From Peptococcaceae bacterium BRH_c4a (GTDB taxonomy: Bacteria; Bacillota; Desulfotomaculia; Desulfotomaculales; Desulfocucumaceae), in NCBI GenBank assembly GCA_000961585.1, contig LADN01000093.1:1-56289 (forward strand): 56,289 nucleotides of DNA, in the 5' to 3' direction. Position 1 is the first letter of the stretch, and each line of letters starts with the position of its first letter. Made by a program: the position numbers and the translations under genes. The notes beneath the pieces are model-generated. The model made no database searches. It saw nothing but the letters and a program-made list of their open reading frames with translations, and was not told the origin of the DNA. Shown here piece by piece: positions 10,074 to 56,289 of the stretch.

Positions 10074-10142
10074 AAAAGCATCCCCCCTGAATTCCTCAGG
10101 TTTTATAGCTGTATTCAACCAAAACATGCCAATTCCTTCTCT

Positions 10143-10511
10143 GGGGTCGCTCCGGGGTCACTCTGTGGCCGGTGGAGGGGTTTGAGTCCGATCTACTTAT
10201 CCTCCGGCTGAACTGGCTCTAAGCTCGTCGCCTAACGGACTGCCGACCGCCTCCAACGCCGCATCCATGCGTCGATTCCGGCTACCGGCTGCGTCCTGCA
10301 GCCGGTCCGGCAGTCCGTACGGCTCTGTCGCCAAGAGCCAGATAACAGCCTCCGGAACATCCGCCTGGACTAAAACCCCTCCCCCCTCATGCATGTCGCT
10401 TGAGGGTCACTTTTAAAGTATGCTGTCACCATTCTGAATTCTGAATTCTGGCTTCTGGATTCTGGATTCCGCCGTCTGCAAGACGGCAACGCCCGTCAGG
10501 GCGTTTTTTTA
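10143..10511 (+). ncRNA. Element A: candidate structured RNA/repeat ending in a double-hairpin terminator
   Basis: This gap between prfC and glgP holds one of two copies of a conserved element; the other is at 41879-42180, minus strand. Read on plus, block 1 (TCCTCCGGCTGAACTGGCT) is at 10199-10218. It is followed by a palindromic core with perfect 11-bp arms (10235-10245 and 10308-10318). Block 2 (ATCCGCCTGGACTAAAACCC) starts at 10358, then GAGGGTCACTTTTAAAGTAT and a heptamer array. The 3' end has two GC hairpins, GCCGTC/GACGGC and CGCCC/GGGCG, and seven T. No protein is credible here. The RNA-gene reading is inference; a mobile repeat carrying a terminator is the alternative. Confidence 0.5.
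10471..10511 (+). terminator. Tandem-hairpin intrinsic terminator on the plus strand
   Basis: GCCGTC-TGCAA-GACGGC is followed directly by ACGCCC-GTC-AGGGCGT and TTTTTTT. It points away from prfC, whose stop codon lies in the T-run, so it does not serve prfC on the minus strand. It would end only a plus-strand transcript from element A. Confidence 0.8.
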
Positions 10512-40977: not shown

Positions 40978-41880
40978 ATGATCAATATAAACCAGTTAAA
41001 AACCTTTGTCACGGTGGTTGAAGAACAGGGAATATCCTCGGCCGCCGAAAAAATTGCACTGACCCAGCCTGCGGTCAGCCTTCATATTCAGGGACTGGAG
41101 GATTGCGTTGGCACCGGACTTTTCATAAGGCGGGGCCGGGGCTTGGAACTGAACAGCATTGGCAGGGCACTCTTCGATAAGGCGAAGGAAATGGTTTTAA
41201 ATTATGAGAACGCTGAAAAGTCTATAATCAATACCATAAACATGATAAAACAAGATATCACCATCGGCGCCGGACCCATAATGTCGGATTATGTGCTGCC
41301 GCATGTGATAGCCTCCTTTAAAAAGGACAACGCCAACATAGAAGTAAAAATTGAGCCGTCAGAAACCTCCCTGATTATAAAGGGTGTGTTGGATCATTCC
41401 TTTGACCTGGGATTTATCGGCGCCCCGGTTGGAAATGAAAAAATTGAAATGGAAGAATGGATTGAAGAGGAGCTTTTGTTGATAGTTCCCCCAAATCACC
41501 CCTTTGCCAAAAGAAAATCAATAAATTCCAAAGAACTGGAAGGTCAGAATTTTATTATGCGTAAAGAAATAACCGGGATTAGAATGTTTCTGGAACAAAA
41601 GCTTCGGTCGGCCGGGTTAAAGGAGTCGGTGCTGCAGCCGGCCTTTGAGGTTCCCAGCACCACCTCGGTTCTGACCAGTGTTGAGGCCGGACTTGGAATA
41701 TCTTTTGTGTCCAGGTGGGTGGGCAAGCAGGCCATTGAGCTGGGAACGGTGGCTTTAGTACCCATTGAGAACGTTTCCCTGATTCGCAACCTCTATATTA
41801 TCAACAGGAAAAACAAAAGAAAGCTCCCCTGCGTGGAAAGCCTCCTAACCCACCTCCGACGGTACAAAGACCAAGTGTAA
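40978..41880 (+). CDS. LysR-family transcriptional regulator (paralogue 2)
   Basis: A 300-aa LysR protein with HTH NQLKTFVTVVEEQGISSAAEKIALTQPAVSLHIQ and effector domain from ITIGAGPIMSDYVLPHVIASF. It is a close paralogue of the regulator at 32824: the first 26 bases are identical and similar motifs continue to the end. It faces the ligase-kor operon divergently, like paralogue 1 and the glutamate mutase operon, but an insertion sequence now separates them. AAGGTG precedes the ATG. Its TAA runs directly into element B. Confidence 0.95.
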   Translation: MININQLKTFVTVVEEQGISSAAEKIALTQPAVSLHIQGLEDCVGTGLFIRRGRGLELNSIGRALFDKAKEMVLNYENAEKSIINTINMIKQDITIGAGPIMSDYVLPHVIASFKKDNANIEVKIEPSETSLIIKGVLDHSFDLGFIGAPVGNEKIEMEEWIEEELLLIVPPNHPFAKRKSINSKELEGQNFIMRKEITGIRMFLEQKLRSAGLKESVLQPAFEVPSTTSVLTSVEAGLGISFVSRWVGKQAIELGTVALVPIENVSLIRNLYIINRKNKRKLPCVESLLTHLRRYKDQV

Positions 41881-42180
41881 AAAAACGCCCTGACGGGCGT
41901 TGCCGTCTTGCAGACGGCGGAATCCAGGAGCCAGAAGCCAGAAGCCAGAATGGTGACAGCATGCTTTAAAAGCGACCCTCAAGCGACCCCACAGCGACAT
42001 GCAGTGAGGGGGAGGGGTTTTAGTCCAGGCGGATGCTGGAATAGTCGTCAGTCGTAGGACTTCAGACGTCGGAATAGTTTTATTTTACCTCTGGTCAAAA
42101 GACTTTAAGACCTACGACTGAAGACTGACGACCGACGACTGATACAGCCAGTTCAGCCGGAGGAGTTAAAACCACATCTC
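41879..42180 (-). ncRNA. Element B: second copy of the candidate structured RNA/repeat
   Basis: Minus-strand counterpart of element A. Block 1 (TCCTCCGGCTGAACTGGCT) is at 42146-42165, and block 2 with GCCTGGACTAAAACCCCTCC at about 42009-42034. The GAGGGTCGCTTTTAAAGCAT block, three GCCAGAA heptamers and the same double hairpin with a T-run (41921-41879) follow. The core between blocks 1 and 2 is unrelated to that of A but again a palindrome with perfect 11-bp arms (42048-42058 and 42111-42121). The terminator is oriented to end minus-strand transcripts, possibly also from thiC. It fills most of the 392-bp gap. Confidence 0.5.
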
Positions 42181-42232
42181 CATGGCCCGGCCTGAAAGTT
42201 CCTCCCAATTTCATACACTCCGGCTAACTCTT

Positions 42233-42262
42233 TTAGCTTATAGCTTACAGCTTACAGCTTAC
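42233..42262. repeat. Heptamer array (AGCTTAC)n
   Basis: Four 7-bp units of the type AGCTTAYA after the thiC stop, related to the AGCTTAA units at 45065 and 55014. Confidence 0.75.
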
Positions 42263-42272
42263 GTCTAACGAC

Positions 42273-43568
42273 TCACATAGGGTCTTCACCGGCCAGTACC
42301 TTGTTCATATTGCGGACGGCGCACATTTTTCCGCACATGGTGCAGGTGTCCTCATTTTCAGGCTTGGACTCCTCTCTGTAGCGCCGGGCTTTTTCGGGGT
42401 CCATGGCCAGTTGGAACATCTTTTCCCAATCCAGATTGCGTCTGGCCTCGCTCATCCGGTCATCCCACTCCCTGGCCCCGGGTATCCCCTTGGCAATGTC
42501 GGCGGCGTGGGCTGCTATGCGGGAGGCCATGATACCCTCCTTCATATCCTCCAGGGTGGGCAGCCTGAGGTGCTCGGCCGGAGTGACGTAGCAAAGGAAA
42601 TCCGCCCCGTGGGCTGCCGCGATGGCGCCCCCTATGGCGCTGGTGATGTGATCGTAGCCGGGGGCAACGTCGGTAACCAGAGGCCCCAGTACATAAAAGG
42701 GTGCGCCGTGGCACAACTTTTTCTCCAGAAGCATGTTGGCTGCAATCTCATTCAGGGCCATGTGGCCCGGGCCCTCGATCATGACCTGGACGTCTCTTTC
42801 CCAGGCCCTTTTGGTCAGCTCTCCCAGAACGATCAGCTCCTGTATCTGAGAGGCGTCGGTGGCGTCCTTTAAGCTCCCCGGCCGGCAGGCGTCGCCCAGG
42901 CTGATGGTGACGTCATATCTGCGGCAGATTTCCAGCAGATCATCATAATACTCATAGAAGGGGTTTTCCCTTCCGTTCATTTCCATCCAGGCGAAAAGCA
43001 GCGCCCCGCCCCGGGAAACAATATTGGTGAGCCGGGAGCTTTTCCTGAATCTGGCGGCGGCTTCCCGGTTAATCCCGGCGTGGATGGTCATAAAGTCCAC
43101 CCCGTCCCGGGCGTGTTTTTCCACCACACCCAGTAACTCCTCTACGGTTAACTCTTTTAGTTCCTTATCAAAGTAGCCCACGGCATCGTATATGGGGACA
43201 GTCCCTATGGCGGCCGGCGATATTTCAACTATCTTCCTCCTGAATTCCTCAGTTTTGCCGTAGCAGCTCAGATCCATTATGGCCTCGGCCTTCAGCTGCA
43301 CTGCTATCCTTACCTTTTCCAGTTCCGTCTCCATGTCGCAGCAGTCCTTGGAAACCCCCAGATTGACATTGATCTTTGTCCTCAGTCCCTGCCCGATTCC
43401 GCAGGGATCAAGGGATCTGTGGTTCCTGTTGGCAGGTATAACCACCTTGCCTTCGGCCACCAGGTTCCGCAGTTGTTCCGGGCCGAGGCCTTCTTTCCGG
43501 GCCACCGCCTCCATCTCCGGGGTTGTAATCCCTTTGCGGGCGGCCTCCATTTGTGTGCTGTAATTCAA
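42273..43568 (-). CDS. thiC: Phosphomethylpyrimidine synthase
   Basis: The 431-aa radical-SAM enzyme converts aminoimidazole ribotide to hydroxymethylpyrimidine phosphate. [16 protein letters not shown]-like start ([23 protein letters not shown]), [17 protein letters not shown] and [20 protein letters not shown] are conserved. The C-terminal cluster motif is CTMCGKMC (Cys 409, 412, 416). This is the short clostridial/archaeal form without the N-terminal extension. A benzimidazole-forming paralogue (BzaF) looks similar, but the thi operon and riboswitch favour ThiC. AAGGAGG from the thiE end precedes the ATG. Confidence 0.95.
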
Positions 43569-43571
43569 TGG

Positions 43572-44231
43572 CTATACCTCCTTATGGCTGAACGATTCTT
43601 TTAGGGCGCATACCTTGGCCTCTATATCCTCAGCCCCTGCTATTTCCGTCACCAGTGCCACGCACCTGGCCCCACGGCCGATGACTGCGGCGATATTGTG
43701 TTCCTTTATACCCCCGATGGCCACCTGGGGAAGGCTTATATTCTTCACCGCATATTCCAGATATTCCAGTCCCACCGCATCACAGACATCTTTTTTTGTG
43801 CTGGTGGGAAAAATGGGCCCCACCCCTATGTAGTCAACCGCCGAGGACTCCTCCGCAGCCAGGGCCTGTTCAGGCGAGTGAGTGGAAAGTCCGATGATCA
43901 TTTGATCCCCCACCAAATACCTGACCTTCTGCGGAGGCAAATCGTCCTGGCCTATATGCACCCCGTCGGCGCCCACCAAAAGGGCTAGGTCGGCATGATC
44001 GTTTATTATAAAGGTGACCCCGGCCTTTGCTGTCAGCTCCCTTATTTTCAGGCACTCCCGGTATTTTTGCCCCATGCTCTTTCCCTTTTCCCGGTATTGA
44101 ATCACCCGGATGCCCGAGCCAATCATACGGGCCACCACCTCTATATTACTCCTGCCCAGGGAGTATTCTTCAGCGGTTATCCCGTAAATGCCCCCCTCCA
44201 GGATGGGCTCCATGCCCCGTTTAATGGCCAT
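43572..44231 (-). CDS. thiE: Thiamine-phosphate synthase
   Basis: This 219-aa enzyme joins hydroxymethylpyrimidine diphosphate and thiazole phosphate. GIYGITAEEY, VIQYREKGKS, FIINDHADLALLVGADGVHIGQDDLP, GLSTHSPEQA, YIGVGPIFPTSTKKD and QVAIGGIKEHN are the family motifs. GGAGGTG lies 6 bp before the ATG at 44231, one base after the thiF stop, so I use it in place of the frame's upstream ATGs (44252, 44279). Confidence 0.95.
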   Translation of the reverse strand: MAIKRGMEPILEGGIYGITAEEYSLGRSNIEVVARMIGSGIRVIQYREKGKSMGQKYRECLKIRELTAKAGVTFIINDHADLALLVGADGVHIGQDDLPPQKVRYLVGDQMIIGLSTHSPEQALAAEESSAVDYIGVGPIFPTSTKKDVCDAVGLEYLEYAVKNISLPQVAIGGIKEHNIAAVIGRGARCVALVTEIAGAEDIEAKVCALKESFSHKEV

Positions 44232-44232
44232 C

Positions 44233-44856
44233 CTATACACCTCCGCTTTCATGCCCCAGAAAAAAGCTGAAAACAACATCGGCCTGTTTTGCCGCCGCCG
44301 TGATCACCCTGGGGGCCATGGCCGGGCACTGGGGCCCCACCTCGGAGACCAGGTCCCCCACCAGGAAGAAATTATCCTTAATGCTGTGCACCTTTATGGC
44401 GTCAGACCTGCCCCAGCCGGCCAGACCCGAGGCCGACACCAGGAGTTTTTCCGAATCCATGAAATGCTCCGCCAGCATCCTCTTGCAACCGGCTCCGTCC
44501 AGGGCCTCCACCACCGCCTGGCAGTCGCTGAAAAGGCTCTCCAGTGTTTCCTTTTCTATCTTACGGTGCAGCGCTTCTACCTGGATATCGGGATTGATAA
44601 GCAAAAGGTTTTCTTTCAGGGCCTCAACCTTTTTTAGTCCCACCTGCCGGGGAAAGAAAAACTGGCGATTCAGGTTGCCCGCATCCACATGATCAAAGTC
44701 CACTATGCAAAATCTCTTAAAACCGCTTCTAACCAGCATCTGAGCACAGTTGGAGCCCAGCCCCCCGGCGCCGGCCACCCCCACCTTTACCCTCTGAATC
44801 CTGGCGAGTTTTTCTTCCCCCAGCACCCCGGCCAAGGCCCTCTCAAGCAGATTCAT
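44233..44856 (-). CDS. thiF: ThiF-type sulfur-carrier adenylyltransferase
   Basis: This 207-aa E1-like protein adenylates the C-terminus of ThiS. The nucleotide loop is KVGVAGAGGLGSNCAQMLV; DFDHVDAGNLNRQFF follows with the catalytic Arg. The zinc-binding C-terminal Cys pairs of long MoeB/ThiF are absent, as in short clostridial ThiF. The start at 44856 follows GGGGG with 6-bp spacing; an ATG at 44877 has none. It is separated from thiH by a ~240-bp gap with a repeat. Confidence 0.9.
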   Translation of the reverse strand: MNLLERALAGVLGEEKLARIQRVKVGVAGAGGLGSNCAQMLVRSGFKRFCIVDFDHVDAGNLNRQFFFPRQVGLKKVEALKENLLLINPDIQVEALHRKIEKETLESLFSDCQAVVEALDGAGCKRMLAEHFMDSEKLLVSASGLAGWGRSDAIKVHSIKDNFFLVGDLVSEVGPQCPAMAPRVITAAAKQADVVFSFFLGHESGGV

Positions 44857-44945
44857 ATCAGACCCCCATTTCCGCACCTGAAAAAACTGTAATCTCTCCC
44901 GTCAGATGCCGCTGACACCGCACCAACTGAAGGATAAAAATCCCC

Positions 44946-45092
44946 TTTTTGCCACAGAGGACACAGAGGTCACTGAGAAATTTATAATTATATTAGAGTA
45001 AGCAAATAAGGAATGCCTTGGCCATATTGAATACTCTGTGTTCTTTTGATCTCTGTGGCTAATAAAGCTTAAAGCTTACCGCTTATCGCTAT
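44946..45092. repeat. CACAGAG/AAGCTTA composite repeat, copy 1, inside the thi operon
   Basis: GCCACAGAGGACACAGAG (44951-44968) is answered by CTCTGTGTTC and CTCTGTGGC (45034-45060), an interrupted inverted repeat. AGCTTAAAGCTTACCGCTTATCGC follows at about 45065. The latter half matches the reverse complement of 54898-54951. The element occupies the gap between thiH and thiF, where no gene is seen. Confidence 0.8.
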
Positions 45093-45099
45093 TTTCCGT

Positions 45100-46209
45100 C
45101 TAAATCATTTGCCAATCCTTATAAACCGGCTGGTAGCCGTGGTCGTAAATGGCCTTGGCCATTTCGGCCACGCCGCGCTGGTCTGATATTTCAAACTGAC
45201 CGGTTGACTCCTGATCGGACCGGCCTCCAACGGCGGTGCAGGAACCGGCGGACATTTTGGTTGCCCCCAGCCTGATCAGGCGGTCCCGCAGATCCTTTCC
45301 CTCCCGGGTGGAAATGGTGATCCCCCCCCTGGGCATAAAAAGCCTGAAGGCCAGTATGTACTGCACCAGGTTTTTATCGCTGACACTGACTCTGGGCTGA
45401 AAGCCCCCCAGGTGCGGGCGCATCCGGGGGGGAGAGATACTCACCTCCACGTCCGGGAAGCTGTCCTGCAGATGGTTGGCGTGAATTCCGCTGAAAAAGG
45501 CCTCGCTGCGCCAGTCATGAAGTCCCAGCAGAGCGCCCACATTGACCGTCCTGATACCGGCCCGGCAAGCCTTCTCCGGGGCGTCCAGCCGGAAGCGGTA
45601 ATTCCTTTTGGGACCGGCAGGATGGAGCTGGGAGTATACCTCCCGGTTATATACCTCCTGGTAGATGGTCAGACCGTCCACCCCGGCGGCAATAAGCTCC
45701 CGGTACTCTTCCTCCTCCAGCGGGTATATCTCTATGCTGATGGAGGTGAAGTATTTTTTAAGTATCCCGACGCACTCCCTTATGTATGAAACGGGCGACT
45801 CTCTCCTGGATTCCCCGGTAAGTATAAGTATGTGCTTTAAACCGGTGGAGGCTATGATCCTGGCCTCGGCATCCACCTCCAGGGGGGTGAGCTTCTTTCT
45901 TTCCATGCTGTTATGCGCCTGAAACCCGCAATATACACAATGGTTCACACAGTAATTGGAAAGATACAGCGGGGTGAACAGCAGCATAACCCTGCCGAAG
46001 TGCCTTATTGTTTGACTGTGTGCCCTTTGGGCCATTTCCTCCAGACACCTTTCGGCCGCCGGTGACAGCAGGGCCAGGTAATCCAGTTGGGTAAGCCGTT
46101 CCTTGGCAATAATCTTTTTGACAGCGGAATCTTCTATGCCGTCGAAAAAGGCTTCAAAATCAAAATCCCGGTATTTATTCAGTTCTTCGTAAAAAATCAT
46201 ATCGGTCAT
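45100..46209 (-). CDS. thiH: 2-iminoacetate synthase (tyrosine lyase)
   Basis: This 369-aa radical-SAM enzyme cleaves tyrosine to dehydroglycine for thiazole formation, the anaerobic route (aerobes use ThiO). The cluster motif is [10 protein letters not shown] (CX3CX2C). [43 protein letters not shown] and [17 protein letters not shown] match ThiH. The frame begins ATGACCGATATG; the second ATG (46200) is better spaced from AAGAGGG. It starts 9-18 bp after the thiG stop. Confidence 0.94.
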
Positions 46210-46217
46210 CCCTCTTC

Positions 46218-46988
46218 TTAATCCCTTAAAAATCCTGTCAGGGGTGAGGAGGCCCTGGCATACTGGGCGGTTTCTCCGGGCCCGGCCAGAAAAGCCGTCC
46301 TCCCGGCCTCAACGGCCAGTCCAAAAGCCCTGGCCATGGCCACCGGGTCCCCGGCCGTGGCCACAGCGGTGTTCACCAGCACGGCCGCCGCCCCCATTTC
46401 CATGGCCTCGGCAGCCTCGGAAGGCCTCCCTATGCCGGCGTCCACAATTATGGGCAGCGGTATTTCCTCAATCAAAATCCTCACCAGCTCCCGGGTTTTC
46501 AGCCCCCGGTTGCTGCCTATGGGCGCCCCCAGGGGCATCACCGCCGCCGCCCCAACCTCGGCCAGTTTCTTAGCCGCCATCAGGTCCGGGCTCATATATG
46601 GCAGCACCACAAAGCCCTCGGAGGCCAGTATCTCGGTGGCCTTGATGGTTTCGTAATTATCCGGCAGAAGGTACCTGTTATCGGCTATAACCTCAATCTT
46701 AACCCAGTCCCCGCAACCGGCCGCCCGGGCAAGCCTGGCGATCCTCACCGCCTCCATGGCATTCCTGGCTCCTGAGGTGTTGGGCATCAGTATGCACTCC
46801 TTCGGCACATAAGCGGCTATGTTCTCCTCCTGGTACTCCAGGTCCACCCTTCTCAGGGCTACGGTTACCACCCTGGCCCCTGAAGACCTGACCACCTCGG
46901 GAATCATCCTGTTAGCAGAGAACTTGCCGGTACCCAGGAACAGGCGGCTTTCCACCTCCTGCCCGCCTATTTTCAATATATCCCTCAT
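46218..46988 (-). CDS. thiG: Thiazole synthase
   Basis: This 256-aa TIM-barrel enzyme makes the thiazole phosphate ring from deoxyxylulose phosphate, dehydroglycine and ThiS thiocarboxylate. [70 protein letters not shown] and the phosphate loop [15 protein letters not shown] are diagnostic. The ribosome site is the G-run that encodes the C-terminal glycines of ThiS. Confidence 0.96.
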
Positions 46989-46991
46989 GGA

Positions 46992-47192
46992 TCAACCCCC
47001 CCCCACAAAACTCAGTATTTCAAGGCTGTCACTTTCCCTGAGAACCACCCCGGCCCAGTTCTCCCTTTTCACCAGCAGCATATTGCACTCAACCACAATG
47101 GTATCCGGATTCAGTCCCTTTAGCTCCACCATATCCTCAATGGTGATCCTCTCTGGCAAATCTGTCGGCTTTCCATTAATTAAAATCCTCAT
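46992..47192 (-). CDS. thiS: Sulfur carrier protein ThiS
   Basis: This 66-aa ubiquitin-fold protein carries sulfur as a C-terminal thiocarboxylate. It starts MRILINGKPTDLPERITIED, contains VVECNMLLVKRENWAGVVL and ends SFVGGG with the required Gly-Gly. The start at 47192 follows GGAGGGGGGAT; the frame upstream to 47285 runs through the heptamer array and terminator and is not coding. First gene of the thiamine operon. Confidence 0.95.
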   Translation of the reverse strand: MRILINGKPTDLPERITIEDMVELKGLNPDTIVVECNMLLVKRENWAGVVLRESDSLEILSFVGGG

Positions 47193-47215
47193 ATCCCCCC
47201 TCCTTTCGGGGTCCA

Positions 47216-47251
47216 AATTCTGGATTCTGAATTCTGAATTCTGGATTCTGA
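47216..47251. repeat. Heptamer array in the thi operon leader
   Basis: Five ATTCTGA/ATTCTGG units lie between the riboswitch terminator and thiS. Confidence 0.85.
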
Positions 47252-47276
47252 CAGTAGAGCATTTCAGTATAAGCAC

Positions 47277-47304
47277 AAAACGCACCCCCCTAAGGTAAGG
47301 TGCG
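47277..47304 (-). terminator. Riboswitch-controlled terminator
   Basis: Minus-strand stem CGCACC / GGTGCG followed by TTTTG, directly after the TPP aptamer. It is the probable off-switch when TPP is bound. The T-run is short. Confidence 0.75.
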
Positions 47305-47310
47305 CTTTAA

Positions 47311-47404
47311 ACTCCTTTCCCTACGCGGGCATTATCCCGATCAGGTTTTTAGGGTCAGGTGCTATAAAGCCCTTTCTCAGCCCATATCATGAGCTCCCCT
47401 GTCC
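47311..47404 (-). promoter_or_regulatory. TPP riboswitch (THI element)
   Basis: The minus strand reads GGGGAGCTC..., GGGCTGAGAAAGGG..., ACCTGATCGGGATAATGCCCGCGTAGGGAA, the full set of conserved THI-box segments (CTGAGA, ACCTGAT, GGATAATGCC-GCGTAGGGAA). It precedes thiS-G-H-F-E-C and is followed by a terminator, so TPP should reduce transcription of the operon. Confidence 0.97.
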
Positions 47405-47454
47405 AATATTCACTTTTGCTTAACATAAATACCAATTATTTATGACTTAACTGG

Positions 47455-54885: not shown

Positions 54886-54897
54886 ATCTCACCATCC

Positions 54898-55056
54898 CTG
54901 AAATAGCTGTAAGCTATAAGCGGTAAGCTTTTTTTGCCACAGAGAACACAGTATTAAATAGGCTGGTTGATTCCCCACTCCTACAACCTATTACCTATCA
55001 CTATTACCCGATGCTTATAGCTTAAAGCTTAAAGCTTAAAGCTCATAGCTTACAGC
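54898..55056. repeat. Repeat-rich gap between pilB and pilC (composite repeat copy 2 plus heptamers)
   Basis: Bases 54898-54951 repeat, in reverse orientation, the CTCTGTGGC...AAAGCTTACCGCTTA half of the thi-operon element: AAGCGGTAAGCTT, then GCCACAGAGAACACAG. A second heptamer array (AGCTTAA-type units, 55014-55054) follows. No gene was seen in the gap. Confidence 0.8.
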
Positions 55057-56289
55057 TCAGTTTGTATACGTAACCCGCAGCATTTCCTCCAGGGTGGTGA
55101 CTCCCTCCAGCACCTTCCGGCGGGCGTCTTCCCATAGTGAAACCATGCCGTGGCTGAGGGCGGCGTCCCGCAGTTGGTCGGCGGCACACCTGCCGTCAAT
55201 GAGAAGGCGTATTTCCTTGCCCGCCTCCATTATCTCGAAAACCCCGATGCGGCCCCTGTAGCCGGTCTTGTGGCAGTAGTCGCAGCCCGATCCCCTTTCA
55301 AGGATCAGGGGCTTGTCCTGGTCGCACCCCAGTATGCGCTTCTCCCTTTCATCGGCCTCATAGGGCTTTTTACATTCCGGGCAGATCTTGCGGACCAGCC
55401 TCTGGGCCACCACCCCCAGCAGGGATGATGAAAGGAGGAAGGGCTCCACCCCCATGTCTGTAATCCTGGCCACCGCCCCCGGGGCATCGTTGGTGTGCAG
55501 GGTGCTCAGCACCAGGTGGCCGGTAAGGGCGGCCCTGGCGGCTATCTCTGCCGTCTCGGCGTCCCGTATCTCCCCCACCATGATTATGTCAGGATCCTGG
55601 CGAAGTATCGATCTCAGTCCGGTGGCGAAGGTAAGTCCGGCCCTGATGTTGATTTGGGTCTGGTTTATTCCCTTCATGTCGAATTCCACGGGATCCTCAA
55701 GGGTGATTATATTCTTTTTTTCGTCATTCAGCTCGGCCAGCATGGAGTAGAGGGTGGTGGTTTTACCGCTGCCGGTGGGTCCGGTGACCAGTATTATTCC
55801 GTGGGGCCTGCTGATCAGATTTTGAAACTTCTCCACATCGCCCCGGCCGAAGCCCAGATTTTCCTTGCCCACCATGAAATTGGCCCGGTCCAGTATCCTC
55901 ATGACCACCTTTTCACCGTAGGAGGTGGGCATGGTGGACACCCTCAGGTCAATATCCCTTTTGTCCGCCGAAATCATTATGCGGCCGTCCTGGGGCACCC
56001 TCTTTTCCGATATGTTCAGCCCGGCCATGACCTTTATCCGGCTGGTTACAGCAGAGTGCACCTTCAGACTGGTGGTGAGGTTCTCCTGCAGTATTCCGTC
56101 CACCCGTATGCGCACCCGCAGCTGGTCGTGGTTGGGCTCTATGTGCACATCGCTGGCCCCGCTGCGCACCGCGTTTTCCAGCACCGACCCCACCAGCCGC
56201 ACAATGGGGGCGGAGTTTATGTCCAGGGAGGCGTCCTCAAGCCCCTCCAGCAGCCCGGACTGGGACTGCACAAAGTCGGCGGCGGCCTT
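55057..56289 (-). CDS. pilB: Type IV pilus assembly ATPase, partial (N-terminus beyond right edge)
   Basis: The visible C-terminal 410 codons cover the GspE/PilB motor. Present are SGASDVHIEPNHDQLRVRIRVDG, Walker A ILVTGPTGSGKTTTLYSML, the Asp box ITLEDPVEFDMKGINQTQIN, Walker B RQDPDIIMVGEIRDAETAEIA, the His box TGHLVLSTLHTNDAPGAV, and the tetra-cysteine zinc site CPEC...CDYC. The frame stays open to base 56289, so the N-terminal domain lies outside. It drives pilus extension in the cytoplasm with PilC. Confidence 0.95.
   Translation of the reverse strand, partial: KAAADFVQSQSGLLEGLEDASLDINSAPIVRLVGSVLENAVRSGASDVHIEPNHDQLRVRIRVDGILQENLTTSLKVHSAVTSRIKVMAGLNISEKRVPQDGRIMISADKRDIDLRVSTMPTSYGEKVVMRILDRANFMVGKENLGFGRGDVEKFQNLISRPHGIILVTGPTGSGKTTTLYSMLAELNDEKKNIITLEDPVEFDMKGINQTQINIRAGLTFATGLRSILRQDPDIIMVGEIRDAETAEIAARAALTGHLVLSTLHTNDAPGAVARITDMGVEPFLLSSSLLGVVAQRLVRKICPECKKPYEADEREKRILGCDQDKPLILERGSGCDYCHKTGYRGRIGVFEIMEAGKEIRLLIDGRCAADQLRDAALSHGMVSLWEDARRKVLEGVTTLEEMLRVTYTN

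Follow-up and report, generated by a model that had tools for sequence, protein, structure and literature searches.

Miniature inverted-repeat transposable elements (MITEs), the palindromic repeats termed REP, REPIN or BIME, and intergenic arrays of heptamers are the described systems closest to the element reported here. Heptamer repeats between genes are documented, in the accessible part of one study, as GGGAATC in Xanthomonas and GGGGA(C/T)T in Nostoc; the same text already reported the over-representation of period seven in bacterial intergenic arrays and suggested polymerase slippage (PMC4692102). A further heptamer, TAACTGA, is recorded in the available portion of another paper from Beggiatoaceae, cyanobacteria and Bacteroidetes, with a patchy distribution across phyla, and in the BOGUAY genome most of its repeats are located shortly before start codons (PMC4679880). 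Literature searches by topic retrieved no title or abstract naming the present element or the wider 9-bp family to which it is compared below (supplementary files and most subscription journals were outside their reach). A search with sequence strings yielded a Bacteroides fragilis match, which in the accessible text is a primer near a polysaccharide locus, and otherwise unrelated titles.

The element lies in a window (the whole stretch of DNA analysed, 56,289 nucleotides) from Peptococcaceae bacterium BRH_c4a, and the best full-length ThiH matches (76%) indicate that this host is related to Pelotomaculum and Desulfotomaculum. Below, G000 denotes this genome and G002 its sister species; the genus members are G000 and two others. 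Equal coordinates or sequences suggest that G002 is Peptococcaceae bacterium BICA1-7 and that G001 is the MAG of record JAMCVT010000082. The stretch between thiH and thiF probably represents a single copy of a palindromic, non-autonomous repeat of intergenic DNA that is spreading through the genome, and it would have reached this gap after the split from the sister species.

Anatomy of the insert in the thi operon

The first-pass annotation placed a composite element at 44946–45092, within the thi operon. An element is indeed present there, but the insert is longer (approximately 44880–45099) and includes a hairpin module at 44904–44935. The features of the locus are as follows.

42273–47285, minus strand: host operon thiS-G-H-insert-F-E-C (ThiC, ThiE, ThiF, ThiH and ThiS named by NCBIfam above cut-off)
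47301–47410, minus strand: TPP riboswitch ahead of thiS (Rfam RF00059, 67.6 bits, gathering 54.3)
44880–45099, minus strand: non-coding thiH-thiF stretch, taken as the insert (about 220 bp), up to the conserved thiF leader (reverse complement of 44870–44879)
45064–45098, minus strand: 7-bp array AAAATAGC-GATAAGC-GGTAAGC-TTTAAGC-TTTATTA, read from the sequence
45034–45059, minus strand: arm 1 of the 9-bp part, namely GCCACAGAG, a spacer and a second CACAGAG (motif and inverted-repeat searches)
44978–45033, minus strand: core of type GGCCAAGGCATTCCTTATTTGCTTRCTCTAATATAATTA (similarity search of the genome)
44951–44977, plus strand: arm 2, inverted, GCCACAGAGGA-CACAGAGGT-CACTGAG (period 9)
44904–44935, minus strand: GC-rich hairpin module, a divergent form of the CATCCTCCGTGGTGCCGCTGGCGGCAT found at the same place in other copies
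44880–44899, minus strand: putative far end GGAGAGATTACAGTTTTTTC, which on reading resembles, in inverse, the CTGAAAATA end of other copies

The gene at 46218–46988 was taken as thiG by position alone, its NCBIfam matches being weak and to other families. The gap between the thiH stop, which ends at 45100, and the thiF start inferred at 44856 measures 243 nt, and the single ORF of at least 25 aa lying wholly inside 44880–45099 encodes 31 aa.

On the coding strand, the insert begins with ACGG, AAAATAGC, three NNTAAGC heptamers, TTTATTA, GCCACAGAG, the second CACAGAG and the core, and continues with CTCAGTG-ACCTCTGTG-TCCTCTGTGGC, the GC-rich hairpin module, GGAGAGATTACAGTTTTTTC and then AGGTGCGGAAATG. 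Its CACAGAG part forms an inverted pair (44951–44968 and 45034–45059). One other near-full-length match was detected, in contig C67 (85%, query 13–151; 40 of 85 candidates scored), and pieces are also present alone elsewhere in the genome. In contig C91 (67466–68381), three copies of a piece of the core, spaced 442 bases apart, apparently lie in a long tandem repeat.

Counted singly, the motifs are no more frequent in the window than expected by chance: CACAGAG occurs 8 times (mean 4.5; 9 of 100 shuffles reach 8) and AAGCTTA 10 times (mean 6.6; 15 of 100 shuffles reach 10). It is the composite, not its single motifs, that exceeds chance.

The window also holds other repeats. At 10137–10500 there is a second, larger nested palindrome with GACCCC 11-mers, GGAGGGGTTT/AAACCCCTCC, GGCAGTCC arms, ATTCTG heptamers and a terminator-like end, of which the CCTCCACCGGCCACAGAG part has 13 occurrences in a 795,581-base sample of G000. 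Behind thiC (41880–42262), heptamer arrays of GAAGCCA, ACGACTG and AGCTTAC are combined with inverted CGACTGA-type arms in one gap.

The thiH-thiF gap in related genomes

The 86 loci with matches gave 38 measured rows, equal to 37 distinct records (L069 and L145 are from the same genome). Left out were (i) 24 loci where no thiF was found, (ii) 21 loci for which extrapolation to the thiF start gave a gap beyond the range of −60 to 400 nt, and (iii) three loci on the minus strand. Nineteen of the 21 out-of-range loci, at −61 to −67 nt, thus have no space for an insert, and in the other two thiF lies elsewhere. Among the minus-strand loci, L146 (G003) has a gap of less than 20 nt, and L147 and L152 (G001) are represented by L099.

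The gap measured at most 69 nt in 35 of the 38 rows (34 of the 37 distinct records), including both other genus members; the three relatives with gaps of 204–238 nt were two Desulfovibrio and one distant member of the Bacillota. Neither CACAGAG nor an AGC heptamer array was found in the thiH-thiF gap of any of the 38 rows. The thiF leader of G007 contains a match to GGTGCGGAAATG, positioned close behind the thiH stop. This comparison of spacing had been proposed in the first-pass annotation, with conservation of gap and sequence in distant relatives as the result that would speak against an insertion. No such conservation was found, since the measured relatives lack the sequence and nearly all of them lack the gap.

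A copy in the pil operon

The right half of the thi element had also been reported to reappear, reversed, in the pil operon, and the alignment bears this out. The reverse complement of 45047–45092 matches 54903–54948 without gaps at 37 of 46 positions; its local score is 47, whereas 1,907 stretches of 196 bases drawn at random from the window reached at most 33 on either strand. The host of this copy is a pilus or type II secretion operon, and the following parts were distinguished.

54903–54951, plus strand: heptamer array, T-run and GCCACAGAGAACACAG (alignment to the thi insert)
54986–55008, plus strand: internal array of another heptamer, ACCTATT (tandem-repeat search)
55013–55057, minus strand: inverted heptamer array closing the copy, with the stop codon of the upstream GspE/PilB-type ATPase at its outer edge

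The pil copy is thus an inverted pair of heptamer arrays (54905–54931 and 55031–55057, 89% complementary), in which the 9-bp part is a remnant comprising its first 16 bases only. The gap measures 171 nt here versus 25 nt in G004, the sole relative measured, this being the only one of six pilC loci with a well-matched neighbour adjoining. The predicted RNA fold of 54890–55065 is unusually stable (z = −4.19).

Copies across the genome

The composite is dispersed over the genome. Its array joint, AAGCTTTNNNNGCCACAGAG, was found at 20 places in G000 with at most one mismatch (15 of them exact; reversed control, 0). With the same tolerance, 59 relatives contained four joints, three in G002 and one in G058; the other 57 of the 60 genomes had none, and the reversed control gave one match each in two of the 59 others. 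The three joints of G002 all carry one mismatch, and no AGC array is visible at these places.

In the 795,581-base sample of G000 we detected 38 AGC heptamer arrays (2 in the reversed control), and 12 of 25 GCCACAGAG ends abut a heptamer array. The observation that CACAGAG is joined to heptamers in the same order, originally made for the thi and pil copies, therefore holds for many copies. In the same sample, 13 of 39 GCCACAGAG matches belong to a different repeat. The raw GCCACAGAG counts of the three genus members (118, 64 and 187) were not accepted as copy numbers because, at least in G000, this other repeat family is mixed in.

We aligned 11 fuller copies, chosen by ourselves. Throughout this set the T-rich joint and GCCACAGAG hardly vary; two main types and several lengths of core occur, and the order of modules is unchanged. 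In most of the 11 copies, TTTTCATYCTCC and a hairpin come after the far arm, CTCTGTG..CTCTGTGGC, and in many copies the outer 7-bp array starts with CTGAAAATAGC. Module exchange was seen in the subfamily CTCGGGTC. In one subfamily ACCTCGGGTCTTTATTA stands in place of the heptamers; in copy L044 it is part of a terminator-like hairpin, as if flanking DNA had been captured. Ten of the 11 chosen copies retain the GCCACAGAG/CTCTGTGGC pairing, but the pair is not terminal and the outer ends vary. Short direct repeats, read by eye, flank three copies; their ends do not coincide, so that no common end emerges, and one recurs in another copy. GACGG was considered as a target-site duplication at the thi copy and dropped, because CTGACGGGAGAG also adjoins the C91 copy.

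Placement in the sister species and within gene gaps

Simple ORF calling in the G000 sample (795,581 bases) and in 1,600,000 bases of G002 gave 213 reciprocal best hits and 98 conserved adjacent pairs. By script, CACAGAG units occurred in four of these conserved gaps in G000 only, in seven in G002 only and in none in both. Inspection by eye changed the figures to three, six and one shared: at C8p 12677 the G000 unit is present too, inside a mispredicted ORF, and at C23 62203 G000 holds only a piece like the hairpin module. In every one-sided case the carrier gap is longer, by 141 to 383 nt (−4 to 222, −7 to 330, 6 to 331 and 12 to 277 nt, among others); the medians of the unit-free conserved gaps are 45 and 50 nt. 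The positions are thus mostly lineage-specific, and this, together with the longer carrier gaps, indicates that copies are quickly gained or lost.

The G002 units inspected have arms of the same kind and other cores, and no AGC heptamer array was detected in 400,000 bases of its sequence (control, 1). The 9-bp arms are therefore older in the genus; their fusion with the AGC heptamers looks special to the lineage of G000.

Of the 16 co-directional gaps that contain AGC arrays, 10 have an AAGC-oriented array starting between −8 and +13 nt from the end of the upstream stop; among the other gaps it starts 46–165 nt away in three and is absent in three. The GCTT-oriented arrays stand 15–45 nt from the next start in five of seven gaps (85 and 122 nt in the other two). 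The closeness to stops arises partly by construction, since arrays read in the AAGC direction hold stops in all frames; the remainder fits insertion that spares ribosome-binding sites. The composite is found in either orientation relative to genes, and its copies adjoin unrelated genes.

Occurrence beyond the genus

The sequence CACAGAGNNCACAGAGNNCAC was found in 8 of 299 Bacillota genomes, including G000 (reversed control, 0), with 19 matches in G000, 11 in G192, 9 in G264 and 1–2 in each of five others. Triplets are numerous in two other Bacillota families. CACAGAGNNCACAGAGNNCAC was also present in 3 of 50 genomes reached via thiH loci, one of them being, as judged by an equal place, one of the five low-count genomes. 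In viral contigs, which may be phage or host DNA, the 9-bp triplet occurred in at least 120 stretches versus 43 for the reversed control; preceded by TTANC, it was found in 97 stretches, some sharing one contig, versus none. The boundary before the first 9-bp unit is conserved as a TTARC-like sequence in the viral contigs, G000 and G002, and reads AC in G192 and G264.

An inverted partner within 400 bases accompanied 24 of 26 sites in G002, 8 of 15 in G000, 6 of 9 in G264, 1 of 6 in G192 and 19 of 126 in viral contigs. A period-7 array within 150 bases was detected at 10 of 11 clusters in G000, 6 of 7 in G192, 3 of 8 in other Bacillota, 2 of 14 in G002 and 0 of 8 in G264, and at 5 of 26 reversed-control sites, all with one unit. 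The corresponding 37 of 121 cases in viral contigs (random positions there, 6.3%) are not independent, since many share the unit TTAAAAC and may be related. Of the viral triplet sites, 95 of 126 lie inside a stop-free frame of 120 codons, versus 34 of 37 control sites. The exact 40-base composite joint was absent from the viral contigs, one full copy gave no match to annotated phages at E 0.01, and among plasmids the only match was a weak partial one, to a plasmid of Bacteroides finegoldii (50 bases, 82%, E 4e-3). In the IMG/VR contig L283, six CACAGAG triplets are adjoined by long 7-bp arrays (TATCCAG over 166 bases).

It is conceivable, though we hold it only tentatively, that these sequences form an unnamed class of composite non-coding mobile elements, spread across distant bacteria and viral contigs, in which TTANC is followed by (CACAGAGNN)2-3, often as an inverted pair, and 7-bp arrays of fixed period and free sequence are recruited. 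The thi insert would then be a recent product, and period seven would reflect a shared enzyme or copying step, not common ancestry of the units. If this were right, the motif scattered over environmental genomes and viral contigs would mark a genuine family of mobile elements whose boundary can be defined, and a genus in which positions still shift between sister species would be the place to look for its mover.

Origin of the repeat

The unit is modular, comprising an outer 7-bp array, 9-bp CACAGAGNN arrays in inverted arrangement bounded by a TTARC-like sequence, a core differing by subfamily and species, and a GC-rich hairpin. It often lies just behind stop codons and probably leaves the ribosome-binding site of the next gene intact, which would explain why operons tolerate it. 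We infer that copies move as units, mobilized in trans by an enzyme that recognizes the inverted arrays, and are not products of recombination and slippage. The variable outer limits, the mixed orientation and the inconsistent flanking repeats speak against a repeat moved in trans, and the module exchange of the CTCGGGTC subfamily suits recombination. A rather unlikely alternative is that the composite was built in place and nothing transposes: 7-bp and 9-bp units would form locally, or be transferred from other intergenic spaces by conversion, and would then lengthen through polymerase slippage. This is a serious rival, since period seven accounts for 189 of 346 intergenic arrays of period 4–30 in the G000 sample, with many unrelated units (AATCCAG, ACAGGAG, ACGACTG, AACCTCT), and conserved gaps can carry different units in the two species. 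Among the 98 conserved gaps, 7-bp arrays are present in both species in five, in G000 only in seven and in G002 only in nine (one-sided Fisher P 0.013; P 0.007 among gaps of at least 30 nt in both species); the units differ in four of the five shared gaps (G000 C67 23569, 24925 and 52284; C23 11804 and 14300). However, slippage does not readily yield gains of 141–383 nt with a fixed module order, nor does it readily account for the comparable bases that precede the first 9-bp unit in other hosts.

The first-pass annotation had called the element a mobile or repeat-derived unit in operon gaps; its repeat-derived nature and lineage-specific placing stand, but a transposase search confined to the Y1_Tnp family revealed no linked gene in the loci examined. 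A REP/REPIN-like element moved by a RAYT (Y1 transposase) would account for palindromic, intergenic, many-copied repeats, and Y1_Tnp genes occur in all three genus members. Yet G000 has only two Y1_Tnp matches, and none of the 19 Y1_Tnp loci examined (of 21) carries the arrays; eight of these loci are from carrier genomes, which have 15 Y1_Tnp matches. The intact G000 gene (L141, contig C77) lies at a contig end, and its one flank has a different palindrome, GACAGGGGACGGTTCTCGCTGTC; G003 has 12 Y1_Tnp matches, yet GCCACAGAG shows no real excess there (15 versus 10 in the control) and the joint is absent. We therefore consider movement by RAYT improbable. The palindrome beside L141 holds GGGGACGGTTCT, which is present too at the Y1 loci L478 and L481 of relatives. 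Least probable of all is a cis-regulatory RNA of the thi operon (an attenuator, a processing site or a second riboswitch), for which the arms could pair as RNA in an operon that is under a TPP riboswitch. At the thi element there was no Rfam match at E up to 1, the fold has unremarkable stability (z = −1.34, matched by 21 of 200 shuffles), no promoter or terminator matched on the coding strand, and none of the nine stem pairs covaried among 11 copies, a weak test given that most pairs are invariant. The element is moreover absent from the measured thiH-thiF gaps of relatives, and stands beside unrelated genes. As modelled, a transcribed thi element could form a stem-loop in the thi mRNA; the altered thiF-E-C expression suggested in the first-pass annotation is possible but not indicated.

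Comparison with known systems

The known kinds are MITE-like palindromes and intergenic heptamer arrays, and the thi element is a variant of these. The dispersed repeat resembles MITEs in that its copies are short, non-coding and numerous, have inverted arms and shortened cores, and occupy intergenic, lineage-specific places. It differs in that no autonomous partner was found among the Y1 transposases searched and there is no consistent target-site duplication, and in that its arms are tandem 9-bp and 7-bp arrays and not one terminal repeat. With the REP, REPIN and BIME repeats of RAYT systems, as far as the accessible text describes them, it shares a palindromic, intergenic, composite structure and a high copy number, but the unit is larger and is not linked to Y1 transposase genes (PMC2817692, PMC3116915, PMC3733652). 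It is in turn like the heptamer repeats of Xanthomonas and Nostoc and the TAACTGA repeats, again as described in the available parts of those reports, in having tandem 7-bp units between genes. Unlike them, it occurs in a genome with many different 7-bp units, one of which is fused to inverted 9-bp arrays, and, in contrast to TAACTGA, the AGC arrays often stand behind stop codons. If the reading as a mobile family is right, the element would also offer a test case for why bacterial intergenic arrays favour period seven.
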